Virus record (IMG/VR): IMGVR_UViG_3300032331_000893
Span: 1 to 20,057 of that record
Origin: a virus
Reading direction: 5' to 3' (one strand)
Length of the DNA: 20,057 nucleotides
The translations under genes were made by a program, and so were the position numbers. A model generated the notes under the pieces. It was not told the DNA's origin, ran no database searches, and was given only the letters and a program-made list of their open reading frames with translations. Shown here one piece after another: positions 2 to 13,067 of this stretch (the first letter of the stretch is position 1; every line of letters begins with the position of its first letter).

Positions 2-1258
2 TTGGCTAGAATGGCGGCCCAAGCTGCGGGACTCAGAATTAACATGAGTGAAACTTTTGAATTTGCGGGAAAAGTATTTGACCCTGAAGGTGCTATTGAT
101 ATGGTTGCGACTTTCCAAAGATTGGGGGTTGCCGCTGGTGATTTAGCAGACCCATTTAGATTAATGTATTTAGCTTCGGAAGACGTTGAAGAATTACAAA
201 ATCAAGTTGTAAACATGACTGAAAAGTTTGTACAATTTGATGAAAAAAATGGTAAGTTTAAAGTTTTACCAAACGCCAAACGTGATTTAATAGAGTTACA
301 AAAAGCTACAGGATATCAATATGATGAATTGGTTAAAATGGGTGAGGGTGCTGCTAAATTACAACTTTTACAAAAAGATTTTAAAGTAGGTGGATTTGAC
401 AAAGAATCACAACAGTTTATTGCAAATGTTGCTCAGTATAGTAAAGAAAAAGGTGGTTTTACTGTTAAATTAGGTGTTGGTGATGAAAAATTAATTTCAG
501 AACTTAATGTTGATGATTTTTCAAAAATAGAGGAATATAATAAACCTAAAAAATTAGAAGACTTAGCTAGAGACCAACTCAGCACAACACAATCTATTGA
601 GTCCATGGTAAGACAATTTGTGTTTGGTGCGGCTGCTCCAATTGCGGGCTCAAGGTTTCCTAGTGATGTTAAAGATATGGAAAGAGCCATAAGTCTTGCG
701 GGAAAAGCGGAAATTGATAAACTTATGGGAAATCCTCGTAATACAATCAAAACCATTGACTCAGGATATAAAAATTTATCCGGTGCCGCGATTGGCGCTT
801 TTGAAGGAAAATTTTCATTTTCAGATGCTAAAAAAATGTTTGATGAAAGTACCAAAACAATATATGGTAATTTAGAAAAATTTGGACAAACTTTGGAAAG
901 TATGTCTCTTTCTGACATTAAACCATTTATATCTGACAGCAATTTATTGGCAAAATCATTGGGCGCTGGTGCCGATGCTGTAGGTAGATTTACTGACAAA
1001 CTTGATAATGCTTTTGCAACAGGTAAACCAATAAAAAATAATCCTTTAAATTCAAACACACCCAATCCAACCCCACAAAATTATACTTTAAATGGTGGTG
1101 TAAAAGTGGATGTGGATGTAAACGGTCTTGATAAAAATATTTCACCTGATTTATATCAAAAAATGATGGACGCAATTTCAAAAGCCGTGAAAGAGGCGAT
1201 TGAAAAAGCATTACCACAAGGACAATACGGAAATGTACCTTCGTCAGTTCCACGATAA
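2..1258 (+). CDS. C-terminal part of a tape-measure-like tail protein (5' end cut by window)
   Basis: The frame is open at the left edge, so the apparent TTG start is not trusted and the true protein begins upstream. The visible 418 residues are helix-rich and hydrophilic with Ala/Gly-rich stretches (for example GAAAPIAG, GAADAVG-like patches). They include a conserved-looking block, DLADPFRLMYLASEDVE, near residues 48-64. A Pro/Asn-rich linker (about residues 345-362) is followed by a short beta-type segment (GGVKVDVDVNGLD) and a final amphipathic helix. This helical body with a small C-terminal cap is typical of tape measure proteins, which set tail length and sit in the tail tube lumen. 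Position supports it: the next gene encodes a tube-initiator-like baseplate protein, as gp29 precedes gp48 in T4. Another long internal virion protein is possible. Confidence 0.55.
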   Translation: MARMAAQAAGLRINMSETFEFAGKVFDPEGAIDMVATFQRLGVAAGDLADPFRLMYLASEDVEELQNQVVNMTEKFVQFDEKNGKFKVLPNAKRDLIELQKATGYQYDELVKMGEGAAKLQLLQKDFKVGGFDKESQQFIANVAQYSKEKGGFTVKLGVGDEKLISELNVDDFSKIEEYNKPKKLEDLARDQLSTTQSIESMVRQFVFGAAAPIAGSRFPSDVKDMERAISLAGKAEIDKLMGNPRNTIKTIDSGYKNLSGAAIGAFEGKFSFSDAKKMFDESTKTIYGNLEKFGQTLESMSLSDIKPFISDSNLLAKSLGAGADAVGRFTDKLDNAFATGKPIKNNPLNSNTPNPTPQNYTLNGGVKVDVDVNGLDKNISPDLYQKMMDAISKAVKEAIEKALPQGQYGNVPSSVPR

Positions 1259-1295: not shown

Positions 1296-4200
1296 ATGCC
1301 AAGCTATTTAACTCTCGCAGCAACTGAATTTGATAGGAGAAGAAATTTATTAAGAAATTTAAAACCCTATAGAAAACCTGGTGTTTTTACACCTTTGGGG
1401 CAACCTGCGGGAATTGATGAATATATTGAAAATGATTATGCGGTTGTAAATTCACCCGATAATTTAATTGATAATAGTCCATTTTCAGACCTTCTTTATC
1501 CAAGAAATAAATTTGGTCCTAATGGTGGTTATAATAAAGACATTAATGGTTTAGTTAATACTTTTCAAACTAAAAGTAATGTTGGTCCTTATGGTCCAAC
1601 ACCACCATTTACAGACGCATTACAATTATATTCAACAAGTTTTATTGGAAAGGCTTACATTAAAAACGCTTATGGTCCTGGTAGTGGTTCATATTCTTAT
1701 TTTGAACTTTCAAACATAATTAAAACGCAATTGAATAGAACTTATTGGGAGCCAATGAGTTTTGTTCCTTCTTCTTATTCACCTTACGCAGTTCTATTAC
1801 AAGCTGACCCTGCTGGTGATAATGGATTGGCATCCCAAGATTCTAAATTAGCTCAAATAGGTGTTAAAGGAGCAAAAGATTCGTTTCAACAAAGAGTTAA
1901 TCAGAATATAAGAACTCAAACATTAGGGCGAATTAATATATTAGGGGGAATAAAAGACCCTATTCAATTAGCTTTATTAGTTGCGGGAAAAAGACCTTTA
2001 ATTGCTCGTAATTTTAAAATTACTGTTGGCGGACAAAATATTTTATCACAAGGTCAAGATATTGTTGAAAGAATTGTTGGTTTTACGCTTCCAATTTCAC
2101 CTATACCTGGAGATTATTTTCAAAGAAAAGATTACAATTCATCGCAATCGGCCACACGAGCTTTTAGTAACGGAAAAAGAGGAGGTCTATTTGGTTTACG
2201 AGGAAACAGACCAACAAACCCATCTCAATTATTTTTGGGATATACTGGTTCAGGTCAAAGAGAACAATTAACTAATAGTTTAGCAAACAACAAATATAGA
2301 CCATATTATAATACGGGTGGTTCTGGTATTTTATCGGCTTTAGGTAATGCAATAACGGGTGCTTTTGCAAGAGACGAATCAGAAGGTAATTTTTATGTTG
2401 GAACCGCAGAAAGAGACCCGACATTTATTGCCTCACCAGCAGGACAAATTCCAATTGACCAATATGGTAATCAAGTTTTGGCCCCTGTTTATGGTCCTGA
2501 CTTATTAGCCAAAGATTTTGAAGGTGAGGTAAATAATTTTATAACACCTTTTGCAAGAACAAGTAACTTTGCTGAAACAGGTGATTTATCTGGTGGTTTT
2601 TCTTGGGTAAGTGGTAAGTGGGCACCAAACTCAGGTAAACGAATGACCCCTAAGGGTGATTACGGGAGTGAAAGTCCTGATTGGAATCAAATATCGGGTT
2701 CATTTATTAAAGGTGAGTCAGATACAAAGACATTCAGACCGGGTTCAATATTAGATAACACTCAAAGATTAATTGATTCACAACCAAACAATGGGGGAAG
2801 ATTTGCTCACGTTGGTAACGCCATACAACAAACATCAAAGATATTCAATGATGGTTACAAACAAATTACCAAGGGTTCACAAGTTATTAAATATTCTGAC
2901 GGACAAACTAATGTTGGTATTGAATATTGTCGTATCTTCACAAAAGACACACCTTACTATACTTTTAATGATTTACAGAAAAAAGAAGGAAACATTAGAA
3001 AGTTTACATATTCTATTTTAGATTCAACATTTAATTTAAATATTGCACCTGAAAAGGGTGGTGATAGTTTAATTACTACAGGTTCAATCAATGGTATTAC
3101 ACAAGGAAGAGTTAAAAAATATATGTTTTCATTGGAGAACTTGGCGTGGAGAACAGGTTATAGACCGGGATATCGTGTTAGTGACCTTCCAGCGTGTGAA
3201 CAAGGACCTAACGGTGGAAGAATCATGTGGTTCCCCCCATATGACTTATCATTCAATGAGGACGCAAGACCAGCCTTTAACGAAACCGCTTTTTTAGGAA
3301 GACCCGAACCAATTTATACATACAAAAATACATCTCGTACAGGTACATTAAAATGGAAGATTATTGTTGACCATCCATCTATCTTAGATTTGATTGTAAA
3401 CAAAGTATTGGCTAATGAGGGTGATAGAGAAAAGGTTGATTCAATTGTTGATTCATTTTTTGCTGGATGTAAGAAATATGACTTGTATGAATTGGCAAAA
3501 ATTTATAACACAGTTCCATTAACAGAATTACAAGCGTGGCAAGAATTACTTAACAACCCACAACTTACCAACGAACAATACACGGACGCTTTTAATAGTA
3601 TTAATCCCGATGAAGGAACTGGTGGTGTAACAGGGGGTGCAACCACTGCTGGAACACCACAACTTACACTTGATGCATACAAATATTTAGGATTTTATTT
3701 TGATAATGATATTCCTGGCACAGACCCACAAGATACTACATCAACTAATTTCCAAACTGCGTATAACGCCTATACATCAATTACTAATAAACAATTATAT
3801 AGTAGTATTTCTGGAACATCGGCAACAACATCAACATTTTTTACTGATATTGTTCAAGACAACTTTACACAAGTTTTGAAATTAATGGGTGAAATGTATA
3901 ACGCATTAAAACAAAATCAAGTTGCACAAATTATTTTACAATTACAAGGTAGTGCTTCGTCACCACAAAAAAAGGTATACAACAAACATCTTTCATTAAG
4001 AAGAATTGATTCTGTTACACAATTTTTAAAAACATATCCGTTTGATGGAACAAACACATTGGGTGATTATGTTGGAACCAAAATATTAATATCTCCAAAT
4101 GCGGTTGGGGAAGAAGTGACAATTAATACTCCAAAAGGAAAGACTGGAACATTTGGTTCGGTTAATTGTACGGAAGATTTTCCGCCAGGTTCACCATTGA

Positions 4201-6191
4201 GAGTTTATTCAACAAATGCTATGGCTTGTAGAGCGGTATTAATTACCGATATTACCGTAATATCACCTGAAACAAATCCATCACCATCTAACCCGGCACC
4301 AAATGTTGTTAATGTTAACAACCCACAACCTATTAAACCAAAACCACCAGTACCACAACCTACTCAAGATTTGTATAAAGGTGCATCTAAAAAGTTATTA
4401 AGATATCTTTTAAATGAGTGTGATTATTTTGAGGTGATGAAGTCTACGGACCCGTTCATTTATAGTTCAATTAAAGAAAAATTAAAATATTTCCAACCAT
4501 CATTTCATTCAATGACACCAGAAGGATTAAACGCTCGTTTAACTTTCTTACAACAATGTACAAGACCTGGTGATACAATTCCAACCATAGGTCCAAAAGG
4601 TGAAAAATTATATAATGATTCTTTAAATACATCATTTGGGGCACCACCAGTCTTAGTATTAAGAGTGGGTGATTTTTATAACTCTAAGATAATACCAACA
4701 GGTGTTAATTTTGATTATGAAAAAACATGGGACATGAACCCTGAAGGCATTGGTTTCCAACCGATGTTGGTGAATGTTACATTATCATTTAACTTTGTTG
4801 GTGGTATGGGTCTTAAAAACCCAATTGATACCTTACAGAACGCTTTGACGTTTAACTATTATGCCAATACAGAAATGTATGATGAAAGAGCTGAGGCTAC
4901 TGAAGACACAAGTAAACTTGATAAAGAAATTGTTAATGCGTTACAAAGACAACAACCAACAGTTGGTTTAACTAATCTTGATGACCAATTAAATACTGAT
5001 GGTGGAAATACTATTGGTATACAAACAATTACAGGAACAACAGCAAGTGGAAATACTGGTACTTTAAAGTATGGACCATTTATGAATAAGTTTGTATCGC
5101 AAACACAAACTTATTATAACACAACCGTTAACACATTTGAAAATGTATTAACAAAGTATAACTATGGAATGTTATCTATGATAAATTCAAGTTCCGATAA
5201 TAATCAATCTTATAATACTGGAAAATTTGAAAATATATTAGTAAATGTTTCTATTTGGGGTAAACCACAACGAACCCAACAATTAACTAACACCGCCTTT
5301 ACAGCATTAATACAAGATGTTGAAGACCAATCGCTATCCATATTTTCATCAAAATATTTTACAAATCCGAGTATTACGGATGCACAAAAAAGATTATTTA
5401 AAAAGAATTATACTGATTATGTTAATACATATAAAAATTCGTTTTTGAATGATTTAACTGTTGATGTAAATACTTTAGTGACTTTACAACAAACGTATGT
5501 TTATAATGTGGATAGAATGAATTTTGTTACTCGCAGTAGTAGAAATGATGGAAAATTAGACAAACAAAATATTGCAATAATATACTCAATATCTGGAACA
5601 CCTGAAACAGCACCAAATGGTACAGTTGTTGACAGTTTGAATTATTTGACGAGTAATTATAATGACATTGGTGATGATAATTCTTTATTTTTAAATGATG
5701 CATTACCGGCAGCTCAATTATATGTTACAAACGCATATAAAATAAATGTACCGGGGACTTGGACAATACCATCTAATTTTCCACAAATACAATTATTAAA
5801 TCAATCTGTACAAAGAGAATATACAATGATGAGTAAAGCCTTATTATTTGATAGAGTAAACTTCATTTCAGGTTTAACACAAGGTTTAGATAGAGTTACT
5901 TCTAATGCTGTTGAATTTTATTACTCAACAGGAAGTGATTCTTTATTTAATCAATGGACAAATTTAAACAAGTTAGGTAAAGATTTAATTGTGAATTATA
6001 GAGCAAGTGTTTCGGGTCTTAAATATGAAAAATATACACCACCATTTGGAACTACTCTTAATAGAATTGCAATATTTGAAGAAAATCCAACCGCGACTAA
6101 TGACATAAAGAACACATTGCAAAATATATATAGTAATAAAAATGATTCAGTCGCAACAAATCCTTTTAACTTTAAACGTAAATTCTTGTAA
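1296..6191 (+). CDS. Giant baseplate / tail-tube-initiator-like structural protein with a nested OmpA-like domain
   Basis: This 1631-aa protein is very large for a baseplate component; T4 gp48 and gp54 are about 320-365 aa. Two separated segments look like halves of one barrel domain of the gp48/gp54 type. The first, residues about 659-695, carries FLGRPEPIYTY, then TSRTGTLKWKIIVDHPS. The second, residues about 1065-1175, carries LNARLTFLQQCTRPG, APPVLVLRVGDFYN and a closing VNVTLSFNF strand. Between them lie an OmpA-like fold (about 799-986) and a Pro/Asn-rich linker (about 993-1025). The N-terminal 650 residues are Gly/Asn/Pro-rich and the C-terminal 450 residues have no recognisable motif. 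No signal peptide or membrane segment is seen. The leader before the ATG is A/T-rich with no Shine-Dalgarno motif. The domain assignment is pattern recognition and the exact baseplate role is inferred. Confidence 0.6.
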   Translation: MPSYLTLAATEFDRRRNLLRNLKPYRKPGVFTPLGQPAGIDEYIENDYAVVNSPDNLIDNSPFSDLLYPRNKFGPNGGYNKDINGLVNTFQTKSNVGPYGPTPPFTDALQLYSTSFIGKAYIKNAYGPGSGSYSYFELSNIIKTQLNRTYWEPMSFVPSSYSPYAVLLQADPAGDNGLASQDSKLAQIGVKGAKDSFQQRVNQNIRTQTLGRINILGGIKDPIQLALLVAGKRPLIARNFKITVGGQNILSQGQDIVERIVGFTLPISPIPGDYFQRKDYNSSQSATRAFSNGKRGGLFGLRGNRPTNPSQLFLGYTGSGQREQLTNSLANNKYRPYYNTGGSGILSALGNAITGAFARDESEGNFYVGTAERDPTFIASPAGQIPIDQYGNQVLAPVYGPDLLAKDFEGEVNNFITPFARTSNFAETGDLSGGFSWVSGKWAPNSGKRMTPKGDYGSESPDWNQISGSFIKGESDTKTFRPGSILDNTQRLIDSQPNNGGRFAHVGNAIQQTSKIFNDGYKQITKGSQVIKYSDGQTNVGIEYCRIFTKDTPYYTFNDLQKKEGNIRKFTYSILDSTFNLNIAPEKGGDSLITTGSINGITQGRVKKYMFSLENLAWRTGYRPGYRVSDLPACEQGPNGGRIMWFPPYDLSFNEDARPAFNETAFLGRPEPIYTYKNTSRTGTLKWKIIVDHPSILDLIVNKVLANEGDREKVDSIVDSFFAGCKKYDLYELAKIYNTVPLTELQAWQELLNNPQLTNEQYTDAFNSINPDEGTGGVTGGATTAGTPQLTLDAYKYLGFYFDNDIPGTDPQDTTSTNFQTAYNAYTSITNKQLYSSISGTSATTSTFFTDIVQDNFTQVLKLMGEMYNALKQNQVAQIILQLQGSASSPQKKVYNKHLSLRRIDSVTQFLKTYPFDGTNTLGDYVGTKILISPNAVGEEVTINTPKGKTGTFGSVNCTEDFPPGSPLRVYSTNAMACRAVLITDITVISPETNPSPSNPAPNVVNVNNPQPIKPKPPVPQPTQDLYKGASKKLLRYLLNECDYFEVMKSTDPFIYSSIKEKLKYFQPSFHSMTPEGLNARLTFLQQCTRPGDTIPTIGPKGEKLYNDSLNTSFGAPPVLVLRVGDFYNSKIIPTGVNFDYEKTWDMNPEGIGFQPMLVNVTLSFNFVGGMGLKNPIDTLQNALTFNYYANTEMYDERAEATEDTSKLDKEIVNALQRQQPTVGLTNLDDQLNTDGGNTIGIQTITGTTASGNTGTLKYGPFMNKFVSQTQTYYNTTVNTFENVLTKYNYGMLSMINSSSDNNQSYNTGKFENILVNVSIWGKPQRTQQLTNTAFTALIQDVEDQSLSIFSSKYFTNPSITDAQKRLFKKNYTDYVNTYKNSFLNDLTVDVNTLVTLQQTYVYNVDRMNFVTRSSRNDGKLDKQNIAIIYSISGTPETAPNGTVVDSLNYLTSNYNDIGDDNSLFLNDALPAAQLYVTNAYKINVPGTWTIPSNFPQIQLLNQSVQREYTMMSKALLFDRVNFISGLTQGLDRVTSNAVEFYYSTGSDSLFNQWTNLNKLGKDLIVNYRASVSGLKYEKYTPPFGTTLNRIAIFEENPTATNDIKNTLQNIYSNKNDSVATNPFNFKRKFL
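3690..4253 (+). other. OmpA-like (peptidoglycan-associated fold) domain inside the 1631-aa baseplate protein
   Basis: Residues about 799-986 follow the OmpA C-terminal layout. A first strand reads GFYFDNDIP. A helix leads to a second strand ending in LQLQGSASSP (G885-P890), which sits where the GHTD motif lies in OmpA. YNKHLSLRRIDSVTQFL (L899, S900, R902/R903) matches the NxxLSxxRAxxV helix. The domain ends with VYSTNAMACRAVLI (970-983), in the place of the NRRVxI strand. The Asp of GHTD is replaced, while the Arg of LSxxR is kept. In OmpA these two residues bind diaminopimelate, so peptidoglycan binding may be weakened or lost. The domain could hold the baseplate to the cell wall or be a purely structural reuse of the fold. 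Confidence 0.55.
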
Positions 6192-6511
6192 TGGATACAT
6201 ATTATAACCGATACCAACAATTCTTAATAAATGGAGAACAAACTGTTGTTCCATTTACACCGTTGCCATCCAAAACATCAGACCAAAGATATGTTTATAG
6301 AACAGGTTTTAGTAGATTGGACAAAGTTTCACAAGAATATTATGGTACACCATTCTTTGGTTGGTTAATATTACAAGCAAATCCACAATATGGTGGTTTA
6401 GAATGGAATATACCTAACAATTCCATATTGACTATACCATATCCGCTTATATCTTCATTACAAGACTATAAAAATGGTTTAGACAATTATTTCTATTATT
6501 ATGGCAGATAA
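6191..6511 (+). CDS. LysM-like baseplate wedge protein, gp53-like
   Basis: This 106-aa protein has one LysM-like module at about residues 35-85: YRTGFSRLDKVSQEYYG, then FFGWLILQANP, then IPNNSILTIPYP. The pattern (enter helix with D/K, YYG, W-I-L-ANP, and a final x-LxIP strand) is the usual one for phage baseplate LysM proteins such as T4 gp53 or P2 gpX. In T4, gp53 joins wedges into the hexagonal baseplate around the hub. Here the gene lies between a tube-initiator-like gene and a hub-like gene, which fits. Its ATG overlaps the upstream TAA by one base (TAATG) and its own stop lies 11 bp inside the next gene, so translation of the three genes is probably coupled. T4 gp53 is longer (196 aa), so this is a minimal version. 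Confidence 0.7.
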   Translation: MDTYYNRYQQFLINGEQTVVPFTPLPSKTSDQRYVYRTGFSRLDKVSQEYYGTPFFGWLILQANPQYGGLEWNIPNNSILTIPYPLISSLQDYKNGLDNYFYYYGR

Positions 6512-9500
6512 CATACAAGTTAACGACAATATATTAGTTGAATTAGATTATCAGAACATATGCTTAATTGACCCAAACAAAGTTGTTAATTTAGACGGAA
6601 CTGTTCGTGAAAGACAAATTCATCCTGAAAATTTGGTAATGTATGCCAATTTGGAAGCAAAAATGATTCCAAGAAGTAAACTTGTTGTTGGTGCGGGATT
6701 TAATGATGCGGTTCAAACAACGCCAATAGCATCTATTAACTTCCTTAGACCAAATGGTGATACTATGTTATCTAATAAGTATCTTGACCAAATAACTGGT
6801 TTAAACAGTGTTAGTGGTAAGGGAACAAACCAACCACAATTAAATAATATAAGCCAACAAAACAAAACTGAGGACTTTTATGTTAAACAAAACACATCAA
6901 ATAGGGTTGACACTGGTCTTTTAGGTATTGAATCAATTAAGATAAAGAACACTAGAAGTTTAACACCTACAGTTGATATTACTCTTGTTGATGTACAAGG
7001 AAGGGCTCTATTTGAAAAAGGTGAAAATTCTGAATATGCGGCATTCTTTAACCTACCCTACCCAACGTTTTATTTAACTTTAAAAGGGTATTATGGTAAG
7101 GCGGTTAAGTACCAACTTATAATGACAAATTTTTCAACTTCTTTTGATAGTAATACAGGAAACTATAGAGTTGATTTAAAATTTTATTCATACAAATATA
7201 CTATTTTAGCCGAACTACAAATGGGAGCATTGTTTGCACTACCATTTATGTATACAACCGATTATAGAATTTCAACAACAACACCACAAACAGGTTCTGT
7301 AAACGCAGCAATTGATAGTAATAATTCAAATGGTAATCCTAATTTAAATCTAACACAATCAATAAGAAGTACAAAAGGTCAAGAAGAAATAACTAAAGTT
7401 TATAAGTTGTATAAAGCCCAAGGTTTAATTGACCAAAATTTACCCGAGTTGTCATTTCCTGAATTAAGAAATAGGTTATTTAGACTTGAAGAAAATATAA
7501 ATAAAAGTTATGGTGAAGCGGATTTTACACCATTAACAAACATTAATACATATAGCTCTTATTTAACATCATTAAGAGATGATGTTCTTTCATCTGATGT
7601 TAATTCTTGGTTTGGACAGTATATTGACCAAGACAAAATATTTGTTTTAAATACTCAAAATACTGGTGGTGAGTCAAATATTATTACATACATTTATAAA
7701 CCAAATATTATAAATGATAAACAATTATCACTTAACGCATACAATCAACTAAAAAAGATTGTTAGTGGGTATAAAGCAGAATTGGCTAGTAATGCAACTT
7801 TAGGTAAAAACGGTAGTTATATTATAGACGGAAAAACAACCCAATCTCAAATAAATACGTTATCAAGCTTAGAAATTGCTGTAGGAACAACCACATTAAA
7901 TGTTGCCGATAGTGTTAGAAAAAGTTTATCAGTATTAGATATTGATTGGAATCAAACTTTTTTAGTAAGAGAGAAAAGAGAACCTTTACCCGGTGAAGTT
8001 CAAGCATTAATTTCAAAAGAATCACAATTCTTTATACCAATTGTTCTTTCTAATGCATCAACCACTAATTTCCCAACTTATAATTTTGTGTTTGATGGTA
8101 CTTTTAGAGGTAAATCAACATTCAATAAAATTATTGATTTGACATATGCTGAAATTTCTAAAGTTAAAGAACAAGTAATAATTGAATTAGGTTTATTTTT
8201 GGAGAAAAAAATTGAAGGTGATAGTAATTTAGGTTTTAAACCAACTCTAAGAAACATTATGGCCATGATATTTGCATCCGCCGAAGCGTTTATTAGATTA
8301 TTAGATAATGTTCATACTGAAGCTTGGAAACAAAGATTAAATCCAATACGACAAAGAGTTGTTGTAGATGGTGCAAAATCAAGTACTACAACTGAAAGTA
8401 AAAATTATGTCCAACAAAACAATAATAATACTGTTGCGACTGAACCAATATTTCCTTGGCCTCTTTATTTTGTTGAAACAAATTCACCAACAGGTGAACA
8501 ATTTGAAATAAGATATTTGGGTGACTCTCGTGAAGTGGCGTTTACACGAGGAAATAATTTTGACATTTGGCCCGAAGTACAATTTGTTGAAGAATATATT
8601 AAAGGTTTGGCTCAAAGAATAACACCAACAATTACCCCAACGGGTTCACAAGATACTGGAAGAAGTATACAAAGGATATCAATAAACGCTGTTGATTTTC
8701 CGATGACAAATATACCATATTCTAACTATCAAACTGTTAAATTTTTATATGAAATATATGAGAGAGTTTTAATTGCGGTATATTATGATGGTATTGCGAA
8801 GAACTCATCAAAACAATTATCGGTTTATAAAACGTTGTCAGATATTGAAGTAACAAATATTACAACGTCATTAGCAAGTACAAGTCCATCTCTTACAAAG
8901 GTTCTAAAAAATCTTAATTTTAATTCAACGGATTATTTGGCAATACTTAGGAACATTTCAAATGATGGTACAGGTCCAAGTTGGCAACAATTTATTAGAG
9001 GTGAGTTCACATCTGAATATATGAGGACTATAACAACACAAGATTATAGTTTATTAAATGGTGGTGCTTTATACCAAAGTCAAAGTAGCCTAAGCACATC
9101 AAAAAATGTAAAATCTCTTGAAAACGTTGTACAATATTTGGATAGTAGTACGTCTAACGATACTACAAGTTTATTAGCTTTATATCCGTTTGTAAGTAAT
9201 ACTTGGTCGGCAGAAAATTTGTCTAATTCAAAACAAAACTTAGCAACAAGATATAGTACAACAAATAGTATTTTTATTAATGATAATAAAAAATTTATTA
9301 CAAATTACCAACCAAATTTTGACCAAAACACAAATAGACCATTTGTGTCTTTCAACTTCTTATCTTCAAAAACGCCTGAAGTTGAAAATTCAAATTTTAA
9401 ATTATTTTATGATAGTAGAAATATTACTAAAAATTATTTGGTGACAGAATCAATTGTTCAGTATAGTGGAAAAACTGGTAATATTGATGTGAATCAAACA

Positions 9501-12500
9501 ACATCTATGTTGAATACACCATTTTTTACAAATGCGTTATTACAAAGTATTAACTATGATAGATTAAATACGACACAGTATCCTTATGTTGCACCAGCTT
9601 ATTTGTTATTAAATTCATTACCATTATCAACACTTAGAGAACAGTATAAAAATGTTGGTAAAGCTCTTTCAGAAATTACTAATGTTAATGATTTAAATAC
9701 AGATTTAGATTATTTATTTGCTGCATTTACACAATATGGTGCAATACATAAAATACCATACGCATGGGTATTAAAATATGGTTCAATATGGCACCGTTAT
9801 AAAAAATATATTACAGATAATATTGATATATTAGACTCAAATGTTTGGACAAATGTAAATATACCATCACTTTATGACCCAAATGGTTCCAACTTACAAA
9901 AACAATATACATTTTTAAATCAAGACAATGTTTCTGTTGAAATTGTTGCTCAAAAATCGGTAACATCTACATCAACATTTGGTGTTAACAATACAATCTC
10001 AACTGTTAATATTGGGTTCTATCCAAAAGTTGTTAATGAACTTTACTATATGATGACAGGAACAGATTTGTTTACAACATATAGTGATGCTGAAATGCAA
10101 AGTGCTGTAAATTCAGGAATGAATGTGGATTATATTACTAAGTCACAGATTGTATTACCATTTGGTTTTGATAATAATAATTTATCAAGAGCCCTTAATT
10201 ATAATACTTGGTATGTAAGTTTTGACACAAAAGAATCACCAGCATTTCAAAATGTTGGAACAAACAAAACTGTTGTTATTCCTTCATTTGGTAGTAATTA
10301 CAACCAAGTAAGTCGCGAATGTTTTGTACCTTCATCTACAGGTCTTATTATGACCCAAGAAATAGATAATAATAGTGCAATCTTTAATGGTTCTGTTAGA
10401 ACATTTTGGAATGCTCCAAATTATGGGTATTTTGAACTATCAAGTATTACCAAACCAAACTATGATGAATATTTTAAATTTGTTAATAGTACTAATGTAC
10501 AAAATTCATTTGAATTAAGTCAGAAATATTCAAACATTGAAGAAATTTTCGGGGTTTTTAAAACAGAAATTTTAGATACGTTTGAGCAAGAATTTTTGAA
10601 TTTCAGTAAATCTGTGAGAGATTTAAGTGCGGATGATATAATAGGTAATGCGTTAATTGCTGGAGTATCAAACACAAACTTTCAAACTTTATTGACAAAA
10701 CTTTTAACAATTGATGTTGTTGATAATACAATAAATCAAACTGATTATGTAACTAAAGTTGCTAATGTTCAAATGAACAATATGACAACTATTTTAAATG
10801 ATTTTATAAATGCTGACATATGTTTCAAATATGGTAATCCTGGTAATTTTAATAGAAAAGTGTTTGGAACATTTACAACTTTACCAACACCATATAAAGT
10901 TGTTGACCCATACACATACAACGCATATGTTCAAGATACATTACCAACAGATGGTGGTAATGTGACTTTGGTGCAGTCTAAAGCAAATAACCCAACAGCG
11001 TGGAACGCCATGTATCTTAATGTTGGATTTGCTGATGAGGCGGGCATGGCATATAGTAATAATGGAAGTTATTATACTGACTTTTTCCCAACAATGAACG
11101 TTGAATTTACAGAAACAAATGTTAAAACGTTTGCTCCTTTAATAAAAATATTTGGAACCCAAAAATACAACCTTAGGAGTCAGTTTCCTGTTGATACTTA
11201 CAGTAAAGCCGATTTTACGGACTCGTTAAATAATTTTTATTTACAACGTAATGGATATCTAAATGATGTGATTAACCAAGTATTCTCTTCATTACAAAAA
11301 GATTTACCAAATGTTAGCGAGACCGTAGAAAAACCAATTTTTTCGGCAATAGATGGTCTACAACCAAAAGTTGAATTGTATGAAAGTTTTAAAGCCTTTA
11401 ATGATAAATGGATTGCAGGACTTGAAATAACAGAAAGAACTTTATATCAAGACGTTATGTTCTTAGATAGAGCAAACAATGATATTGGTGATAAAGTTTT
11501 AGTTGATGTTTTTAAATTAATTGATTTCTTCTCGGGAACCACATCGGTTAATACAAGAGTTATTGATTTTATTTCACAAATTGTTGCCGATAATAAATTT
11601 ATTATGATGCCACTACCAGCTTATGTTAATTTTTGGGGTGTGGGTGAAGTAAAACAAGGGGTAACACCAAACGCCGAATCAAGTGAGTCTTTAGCAAATT
11701 CAATGTTTGGAACTTATTTAGATGTTGATACAAGATATTCAGAACCAAAATTTGTTTGTTATTACGCAGGTAAACCAAGTGAACACTTGGACATGAGAGA
11801 AGCTAAAGATTATAGATGGAGAACAGATGCATTTGATATCGCAAGTCCGGCATCAAACCCAATTATAGTAAATCTAATTAACAAAAAAGATTGGGGAATC
11901 TCCAATAAAATTGTTGGTTTTAATGTTGATTTTGGAACAAGAAACCAAACAATATTTTCAAGTATTCAACTTGACCAAAATCCAGCTGCGGCAACAACCG
12001 AATCAAATAAAGTTATCGCTGATATGGCAAACGCGGCTGCGGGAAGAAGAACAAATACCCAAAGTGTCAGCCTTTATAATTTATATAAAAATAGAAGTTA
12101 TGAATGTAGAGTTGAAGCTATGGGTAACATGATGATTCAACCAACACAATATTTTAACCTTAGATATGTTCCAATGTTTAGAGGACCATACATGGTTCAA
12201 TCGGTAGAACACATTATAGAACCCGGTACATTTAAAACTTTTTTTAGTGGTATAAGAATGCCAATATATTCATTACCATTAATAACACAACAAATCATGT
12301 CAATAAATCAAAATTTATTGAGTGAACTTGCACAAAGTGTGTTTAGATTAAAAGAAACTTCGGTTACAACGGCACAACCGGCGGTTAACATAATTACAAT
12401 TGGAAATAATATCCAAGTTAATACAAAATATAACACAGCACCATTTATTAAATGTTATAAAGATATTACTGTCGCTGATGTTGCATACCAACAATTTACA

Positions 12501-13067
12501 GGTATTGAAAATCAATCATTTAACATATCTATTTCAGACTTTGCTAAATTATTAAGAACCCGTGTGAATAATCCAATTGCTAGACTTATGGTATTTTATA
12601 CCGCATATCTTAATGGTCATGATGATAAAATTTTATATACTTATAATCATGATTTAGGTAACACCCCTTTGGGTGGAGTCCCACATCCACAAATAAATTA
12701 TGCTGGTAGAAAAGTTTATTTTACAACAAATTATGCTTGTAAAACAAATCAAAATGGTTATACAACGCCACACGCTGTTTTTGAATCGTTTGAGAAGTCT
12801 ATAGATTTTATTTATAACTACTTTTATAACCCAACAAAACCAGTCAATAGTTTATTGTATACGTTATATCCAAATTGGGATATTAAGGATGAAGTAAATA
12901 CTCCAATTCAAATGGCTTATACTTGGGTCTATTATTGGCCAACTCAAAATTATACGTCAGAAAAAGAATTGGGTACATTCTTGAGTCAAAATGAAAGTAC
13001 AAGAGCTAAATTGTTTGATTCTGCGTCTAAAGTTATTCAACTTTGTAAAACATATAACCTTATTTAA
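6501..13067 (+). CDS. Giant baseplate hub-like structural protein (2188 aa)
   Basis: Two regions resemble the barrel parts of phage hub proteins (T4 gp27 / VgrG-like). Residues about 140-242 contain LLGIESIKIKNTRSLTPTVD, VDVQGRALFEKG, NLPYPTFYLTLKGYYGKA and a YRVDLKFYSYKYTIL strand. Residues about 1867-1923 contain YECRVEAMGNMMIQPTQYF, MFRGPYMVQSVEHII and GTFKTFFSGIR, which matches the late hub barrel pattern of a ligand-free strand, GxY and VxH. The long middle part carries repeated aromatic and Asn-rich beta segments with no named motif. The last 190 residues look like a separate domain with TPHAVFESFEKSIDF. T4 gp27 is 391 aa, so this protein is more than five times larger. It probably forms the central hub with added peripheral domains. 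The ATG overlaps the previous gene by 11 bp. No membrane segment is seen. Codon use is strongly AT-biased: among the first 13 Arg codons only one is CGT. Confidence 0.6.
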   Translation: MADNIQVNDNILVELDYQNICLIDPNKVVNLDGTVRERQIHPENLVMYANLEAKMIPRSKLVVGAGFNDAVQTTPIASINFLRPNGDTMLSNKYLDQITGLNSVSGKGTNQPQLNNISQQNKTEDFYVKQNTSNRVDTGLLGIESIKIKNTRSLTPTVDITLVDVQGRALFEKGENSEYAAFFNLPYPTFYLTLKGYYGKAVKYQLIMTNFSTSFDSNTGNYRVDLKFYSYKYTILAELQMGALFALPFMYTTDYRISTTTPQTGSVNAAIDSNNSNGNPNLNLTQSIRSTKGQEEITKVYKLYKAQGLIDQNLPELSFPELRNRLFRLEENINKSYGEADFTPLTNINTYSSYLTSLRDDVLSSDVNSWFGQYIDQDKIFVLNTQNTGGESNIITYIYKPNIINDKQLSLNAYNQLKKIVSGYKAELASNATLGKNGSYIIDGKTTQSQINTLSSLEIAVGTTTLNVADSVRKSLSVLDIDWNQTFLVREKREPLPGEVQALISKESQFFIPIVLSNASTTNFPTYNFVFDGTFRGKSTFNKIIDLTYAEISKVKEQVIIELGLFLEKKIEGDSNLGFKPTLRNIMAMIFASAEAFIRLLDNVHTEAWKQRLNPIRQRVVVDGAKSSTTTESKNYVQQNNNNTVATEPIFPWPLYFVETNSPTGEQFEIRYLGDSREVAFTRGNNFDIWPEVQFVEEYIKGLAQRITPTITPTGSQDTGRSIQRISINAVDFPMTNIPYSNYQTVKFLYEIYERVLIAVYYDGIAKNSSKQLSVYKTLSDIEVTNITTSLASTSPSLTKVLKNLNFNSTDYLAILRNISNDGTGPSWQQFIRGEFTSEYMRTITTQDYSLLNGGALYQSQSSLSTSKNVKSLENVVQYLDSSTSNDTTSLLALYPFVSNTWSAENLSNSKQNLATRYSTTNSIFINDNKKFITNYQPNFDQNTNRPFVSFNFLSSKTPEVENSNFKLFYDSRNITKNYLVTESIVQYSGKTGNIDVNQTTSMLNTPFFTNALLQSINYDRLNTTQYPYVAPAYLLLNSLPLSTLREQYKNVGKALSEITNVNDLNTDLDYLFAAFTQYGAIHKIPYAWVLKYGSIWHRYKKYITDNIDILDSNVWTNVNIPSLYDPNGSNLQKQYTFLNQDNVSVEIVAQKSVTSTSTFGVNNTISTVNIGFYPKVVNELYYMMTGTDLFTTYSDAEMQSAVNSGMNVDYITKSQIVLPFGFDNNNLSRALNYNTWYVSFDTKESPAFQNVGTNKTVVIPSFGSNYNQVSRECFVPSSTGLIMTQEIDNNSAIFNGSVRTFWNAPNYGYFELSSITKPNYDEYFKFVNSTNVQNSFELSQKYSNIEEIFGVFKTEILDTFEQEFLNFSKSVRDLSADDIIGNALIAGVSNTNFQTLLTKLLTIDVVDNTINQTDYVTKVANVQMNNMTTILNDFINADICFKYGNPGNFNRKVFGTFTTLPTPYKVVDPYTYNAYVQDTLPTDGGNVTLVQSKANNPTAWNAMYLNVGFADEAGMAYSNNGSYYTDFFPTMNVEFTETNVKTFAPLIKIFGTQKYNLRSQFPVDTYSKADFTDSLNNFYLQRNGYLNDVINQVFSSLQKDLPNVSETVEKPIFSAIDGLQPKVELYESFKAFNDKWIAGLEITERTLYQDVMFLDRANNDIGDKVLVDVFKLIDFFSGTTSVNTRVIDFISQIVADNKFIMMPLPAYVNFWGVGEVKQGVTPNAESSESLANSMFGTYLDVDTRYSEPKFVCYYAGKPSEHLDMREAKDYRWRTDAFDIASPASNPIIVNLINKKDWGISNKIVGFNVDFGTRNQTIFSSIQLDQNPAAATTESNKVIADMANAAAGRRTNTQSVSLYNLYKNRSYECRVEAMGNMMIQPTQYFNLRYVPMFRGPYMVQSVEHIIEPGTFKTFFSGIRMPIYSLPLITQQIMSINQNLLSELAQSVFRLKETSVTTAQPAVNIITIGNNIQVNTKYNTAPFIKCYKDITVADVAYQQFTGIENQSFNISISDFAKLLRTRVNNPIARLMVFYTAYLNGHDDKILYTYNHDLGNTPLGGVPHPQINYAGRKVYFTTNYACKTNQNGYTTPHAVFESFEKSIDFIYNYFYNPTKPVNSLLYTLYPNWDIKDEVNTPIQMAYTWVYYWPTQNYTSEKELGTFLSQNESTRAKLFDSASKVIQLCKTYNLI

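Follow-up and report, generated by a model that had tools for sequence, protein, structure and literature searches.

The window analysed here is a 20,057-base IMG/VR virus record in which the gene order is a tape measure (assigned by position), an open reading frame of 1631 residues, and genes for proteins of 106 and 2188 residues. The first three genes are as follows.

2..1258, + strand: probable tape-measure protein, C-terminal part (positioned as immuto gp037, from position only)
1296..6191, + strand: 1631-residue open reading frame, probable tail-tube initiator or central baseplate protein with an insert (ATG start; full-length IMG/VR homologs; operon position of immuto gp035)
6191..6511, + strand: 106-residue gp53/LysM-like baseplate protein (phrog_7145 'baseplate wedge subunit', homologs 33/33, best 1.4e-6; LysM by sequence reading)

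A family search with the probable tape-measure protein gave no match. The 2188-residue protein (6501-13067) stands at the immuto hub/carboxypeptidase position; it had no Pfam match, and BLASTP against immuto gp033, whose C-terminal end is a VanY carboxypeptidase (6.6e-10), gave no significant match. Genes further downstream encode gp32-like and RecA/UvsX-like proteins, a 5'-3' exonuclease and a DnaB-like helicase, the last assigned by sequence reading.

The sole match of the UvsX-like protein in the phage collection was to Flavobacterium phage immuto (44%), and cultured relatives were reached solely via this gene; tblastn of the full 1631-residue protein against INPHARED phages gave no match. 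In immuto, the order is gp037 (tape measure), gp036, gp035 (716 residues), gp034 (101 residues), gp033 (carboxypeptidase-bearing) and gp032, while the genes for DNA polymerase, gp32-like protein, recombinase, exonuclease and helicase come from the opposite end of the linear record. The two gene orders agree, and the 1631-residue protein therefore occupies the gp035 position, between the tape measure (by position) and the gp53/hub genes. A Bacteroidota host is likely from these sequence relationships, and the carriers are T4-like phages that form a large group without cultured members, probably with such hosts.

Very many relatives, full-length ones included, were found in IMG/VR among the matches listed. 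We aligned the region in 66 non-redundant full-length relatives among the matches listed (alignment A1), and a wider set of 128 distinct domains was obtained by adding finds from a divergent query to these 66. Neither PHROG nor Pfam has an entry for the family. Longer versions of the protein, with 1935-2127 residues (L297, L298, L300, L301, L302, L307, L308, L312 and L316), carry ~200-500 additional residues preceding the barrel-like part described below.

The original prediction had placed an OmpA-like domain at residues 799-986 of the 1631-residue protein, and translation of 3690-4253 returned exactly the motifs that it quoted. The domain is real, with slightly adjusted limits.

3684..4265, + strand: OmpA C-terminal-type domain, residues ~797-990 (family profile, AlphaFold, Foldseek, E. 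coli OmpA alignment)

Taken singly, the window sequence scored below the curated cut-off for Pfam OmpA (E=0.012, 16.4 bits; cut-off 27.2), which would be compatible with a non-OmpA alpha/beta domain that carries LSxRR-like motifs by chance. At the family level, however, PF00691 was matched individually by 57 of the 66 homologs at E<=0.1 (best 6.3e-6), whereas the next family was matched by 3 members. The family profile built from the 66 rows of A1 matched PDB chains of OmpA, Pal and PorE with values of 2.1e-6 to 1e-4, with YfiB and OprF structures also listed. The wider-family profile aligned with E. coli K-12 OmpA from helix 1 through RRVEI (P 2.5e-6), sharing the landmarks YN..LSxRR, GE, P, Cys and RRVEI.

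AlphaFold, run on the 66-row alignment, gave a confident model (pLDDT 93.7, pTM 0.90) with the beta-alpha-beta-alpha-beta-beta order that the original prediction had named as a check. The elements are strand 799-801, helix 842-872, strand 878-886, helix 893-913, strand 930-938 and strand 980-989, and strand 1 is separated from the long helix 1 by an insertion of ~40 residues with two extra helices. When this model was compared with the PDB using Foldseek, the top 28 matches were all of the OmpA/Pal/TagL/PorE/YfiB type, as were nearly all of the top 50; they included OmpA of Salmonella, Klebsiella and A. baumannii, as well as TagL, PorE, Pal and YfiB. The best E-value (1.8e-3) was modest and TM-scores normalised by target did not exceed 0.58, indicating a distant relation to OmpA. 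While these modest values could be read in favour of a chance resemblance, the family matches, the PDB profile, the nearly uniform fold matches and the E. coli OmpA alignment led us to reject it as highly improbable. We consider it confirmed that residues ~797-990 adopt the OmpA C-terminal fold, as a distant member. When GTDB genomes were scanned with the domain alignment, there were 21 pattern matches, of which 0 were confirmed, so that no cellular or prophage copy was close enough to indicate a donor.

The domain had been proposed to lie between two halves of a barrel. We therefore compared the regions on either side with a 58-sequence profile of the immuto gp035 C-terminal domain.

3138..3431, + strand: left half of a split barrel-like domain, residues 615-712, with the GRPEPIYTYKNTSR motif (hhalign to the immuto gp035 family, alone E 9.8e-10)
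4629..4850, + strand: right half of the split barrel-like domain, residues 1112-1185 (alone E 2.6e-5; joined to the left half 5.5e-13)
3432..4628, + strand: whole insertion, residues 713-1111, consisting of conserved helices, linker, OmpA-fold domain, linker and conserved helices (absent from immuto-type relatives)

With residues 713-1111 excised, residues 615-712 and 1112-1185 were colinear with the immuto gp035 C-terminal domain over 133 columns (hhalign, prob 97.9, E 5.5e-13). Among the controls, 51 decoy windows taken singly reached 0.042 at best, the best combination of the left half with a decoy 1.2e-9, and the two halves in swapped order 1.1e-8. An earlier, smaller template profile gave an identical ranking. 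In the first profile comparison, made without excising the insert, only the left half had been found (prob 8.7-27.6), and excision together with the deeper template resolved this. A GRAE-x3-TY-x4-R motif is common to the immuto gp035 C-terminal domain and the window protein, which thus carries the C-terminal GRxE..YTY..R..(S)F.I barrel-like domain of the immuto gp035 family. The loop at the insertion point is short in the immuto-type family (~17 residues in immuto) and ~400 residues long in the window protein; the insert was present in none of the immuto-type domains. At the level of profile comparison, these results confirm that the OmpA-type domain is nested inside one split domain homologous to the C-terminal domain of immuto gp035.

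The label 'gp48/gp54-type', which the original prediction had given to the barrel, drew support from gene position and from weak structural matches, and was left without a significant sequence match: comparison of the barrel by sequence with the PDB and PHROGs revealed no homology. Low-score matches of OspA to A4 were repeat artefacts. Foldseek with a flanked AlphaFold model (residues 476-1220, pLDDT 59 overall) returned tube-initiator-type baseplate chains at weak E-values of 0.03-0.3, namely AFP 6rao_G (prob 0.93), PVC 6j0n_b (0.87) and 9qgl (0.84), and the 'baseplate-initiators' of A-1(L) in 8kea (0.72-0.85). Baseplate chains of AlgoCIS, the Anabaena CIS and R2 pyocin were on the same weak list, besides OmpA domains. 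In this model the OmpA part alone was confident, and its placement relative to the barrel was therefore left out of account. Together with the gene order, the Foldseek list makes 'tube initiator' the best identification, short of proof; these weak matches suggest that the 1631-residue protein may be a tail-tube initiator, and it would then presumably hold a central position in the baseplate.

The insert is built, in order, of a conserved helical stalk, a low-complexity linker, the OmpA-type domain, a proline-rich linker and a second, very conserved helical stalk.

3585..3683, + strand: N-terminal low-complexity linker, residues ~764-796 (27-60 residues in the 66 homologs, median 37; 73% G/P/S/T/N/Q/D/E/K)
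4266..4373, + strand: C-terminal proline-rich linker, residues ~991-1026 (34-69 residues in the 66 homologs, median 44; 17% Pro)

Low-complexity linkers flanked the OmpA-type domain on both sides in 66/66 homologs, and two such tethers suggest, as far as sequence can tell, that it is a mobile binding module on flexible linkers. Mean per-column conservation was highest (~0.8) in the right stalk and the flanking barrel-like parts, followed by the left stalk (~0.7), and lowest, at 0.32-0.55, in the OmpA-type domain and linkers. Within the second stalk, the stretch FHSMTPEGLNxRLTFLQQCxRPGxTIP (window 4510-4590, residues ~1072-1098) is extremely conserved and is a good marker for the phage group.

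We then examined the residues that line the ligand-binding crevice in OmpA-type domains.

3945..4007, + strand: crevice motif G885-S-A-S888 ... Y895-N896-x-x-L899-S900-x-R902-R903-I-D-S, equivalent of GHTDxxGSxxYNxxLSxRRAxS (column counts in 66 and 128 domains; E. coli OmpA alignment)
4167..4232, + strand: invariant Cys958 and Cys978-Arg979 (each 128/128; E. coli OmpA Cys pair in the same region)

In TagL, DAP is contacted by Asp486, Asn494, Leu497 and Arg501, and wall binding requires Asn494, Leu497, Ser498, Arg501 and Ala502 (PMC8253398). Across the 128 distinct domains, the equivalents Asn896, Leu899, Ser900 and Arg903 were kept in 127, 122, 119 and 128, respectively, so that three of the four DAP contacts are retained. 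The position of the GHTD Asp (Ser888) was Ser in 123 domains, Asn in 4 and Asp in 1, and the equivalent of Ala502 is mostly Ile. Loss of this Asp and retention of the LSxxR Arg, as originally read from the window sequence, thus hold family-wide, in the 66 as well as the 128 domains. The one relative with Asp (L265) has a classical G-x-T-D-N motif (G-Q-T-D-N), which suggests that the domain either descends from an OmpA domain of the canonical, peptidoglycan-binding kind or has reverted.

A degenerate domain (residues ~757-986 in the homologous proteins) is found in a subclade of three distinct relatives (L296, L318/L319 and L320), where the profile no longer finds it. Inspection by eye showed that strand 1 (QFYFDY/QFFFDY), SR or ER at the Arg903 position and the C...GCRRVVIQDI end are kept, and that YN..LS is gone. 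This subclade constitutes a natural test of the binding hypothesis.

The two functional options raised at the outset, a cell-wall anchor and structural reuse, remain the right pair to consider. For the first, the OmpA C-terminal-type domain would hang, by two flexible linkers and two helical stalks, in the loop between the barrel halves of the probable tube initiator. Tube initiators would form a hexameric ring at the tail-tube tip beside the hub and wedges; that of Mu is a hexameric 24-stranded barrel, with a helix-rich part containing LysM that reaches the wedges (PMC11915804), and by analogy six OmpA-type domains would be arranged around the tube base of each virion. In the resting baseplate, these domains would surround the tube tip. 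The tube tip of contractile tails crosses the outer membrane upon contraction, and its entry into the periplasm would put the OmpA-type domains within reach of the wall. Peptidoglycan would then be bound in the Asn-Leu-Arg crevice, through the stem peptide or a variant contact, and this grip would steady the tube tip through wall passage and DNA release. Since the Asp that holds DAP is replaced by Ser, affinity or specificity is expected to differ from that of OmpA or Pal.

That the tube tip carries OmpA-type domains into the periplasm for such a grip of altered chemistry is the most likely of the readings considered, which we hold tentatively. On sequence grounds, the conserved crevice Asn, Leu and Arg and the flexible tethers favour a binding module, and the crevice residues are near-invariant although the domain is less conserved (0.32-0.55) than its flanks (~0.8). 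The fixed change of Asp to Ser, on the other hand, argues against ordinary DAP binding, and the mostly Ile equivalent of Ala502 and the subclade lacking YN..LS also count against an anchor. In addition, LysM is likewise a cell-wall-binding fold, yet in the Mu tube initiator it is considered structural (PMC11915804).

The main alternative is that the domain does not bind the wall at all but connects the tube initiator to the wedge ring, with the crevice Arg and Asn holding a partner segment of the baseplate. The fixed Ser, the extra helices and the precedent of Mu favour this structural role, and the two helices between strand 1 and helix 1 might, in the model, cover the crevice. The precedent is Mu gp43, where a wall-binding fold serves as a structural part; Milano, A-1(L) and R2 pyocin share its topology (PMC11915804). 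Residues that are not ligand contacts are equally invariant (Cys958, Cys978 and Arg979 in 128/128, Pro807 in 66/66), and the degenerate subclade retains the fold without its YN..LS motif. Long, variable linkers of low complexity on both sides would nevertheless be unusual for a rigid connector, and near-invariance of three of the four DAP-contact residues in a domain less conserved than its flanks also speaks against it. We regard structural reuse as possible, if somewhat doubtful.

The fixed Ser, the conserved Arg and the tethers could also belong to a module that serves adsorption or triggering by recognising something besides peptidoglycan, for example a host protein of the outer membrane or periplasm, or a surface polymer. 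Pal binds TolB through its OmpA fold (2hqs, which is among the PDB matches). This explanation comes without a candidate ligand, however, and a central protein beside the tube would be less exposed than fibres before contraction; we consider it decidedly unlikely.

OmpA domains are known as wall anchors of large machines, such as TagL and evolved TssL of type VI systems, PorE of type IX systems and MotB. Like these, the window protein places an OmpA-fold domain with conserved equivalents of the crevice Asn, Leu and Arg on a large assembly; unlike it, they anchor the cell's own machine from inside, retain the Asp and lie outside any tail-tube barrel. The fullest version of the anchor reading is a ring of tethered OmpA-type domains, ultimately bacterial in origin, that sits at the tube tip throughout a widespread T4-like group and grips host peptidoglycan during injection, much as TagL anchors the type VI machine, but in a phage and on the wall of the target cell. 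Taken as a whole, it is rather unlikely.

Among phage proteins, immuto gp035 (716 residues) and its relatives share with the window protein the operon position and a C-terminal domain homologous to the joined flanks (E 5.5e-13), but have no OmpA domain and a short loop at the insertion point. The initiators Mu gp43, Milano gp25 and those of A-1(L) and R2 pyocin resemble it in combining a tube-initiator-type barrel (putative in the window protein) with a helix-rich part that bears a peptidoglycan-binding-type fold, at a central baseplate position that would also be that of the window protein, but the fold in them is LysM rather than OmpA (PMC11915804). In contrast to Mu gp43-type initiators, the window locus has a separate gp53/LysM-like protein next door and carries its OmpA domain on long linkers; the protein is also ~6-8 times larger than the tube-initiator chains of 224-281 residues matched by Foldseek. 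The LysM-like reading of the neighbouring 106-residue protein (6191-6511) comes from DKVSQEYYGTPFFGWLILQANP...ILTIP, and two different peptidoglycan-binding-type folds, OmpA and LysM-like, may occur in one baseplate.

OmpA-like proteins encoded in phage genomes were seen among the BFVD matches. They include the 'OmpA domain' protein of Cellulophaga phage phi17:2 (R9ZWT8), which likewise belongs to a phage of a Bacteroidota host but is a protein of 327 residues with a weak fold match (E 0.23). The best viral fold match was A0A6J5L6C4 of an uncultured Caudovirales phage (E 9.7e-8, 21% identity over 186 columns), inside a long protein that is represented in BFVD by an unannotated section of 786 residues; it is probably a member of the same phage group. 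In the open-access literature that we searched, no phage baseplate with an OmpA domain was described, the papers retrieved being on T6SS only. LysM is known in tube initiators (PMC11915804), and relative to these an OmpA-fold domain in an apparent tube initiator would be new.

Contractile tails must cross the cell wall, and whether LysM in several tube initiators has a structural or a wall-binding role is unsettled. That an unrelated peptidoglycan-binding fold, OmpA, is nested in apparently the same baseplate protein and keeps most of its crevice residues suggests that such folds were recruited convergently. The question of wall binding thereby becomes directly testable with one purified domain, and a very common, unannotated baseplate protein of uncultured phages (size given as 1.6-2.1 kDa x1000) gains an annotation.
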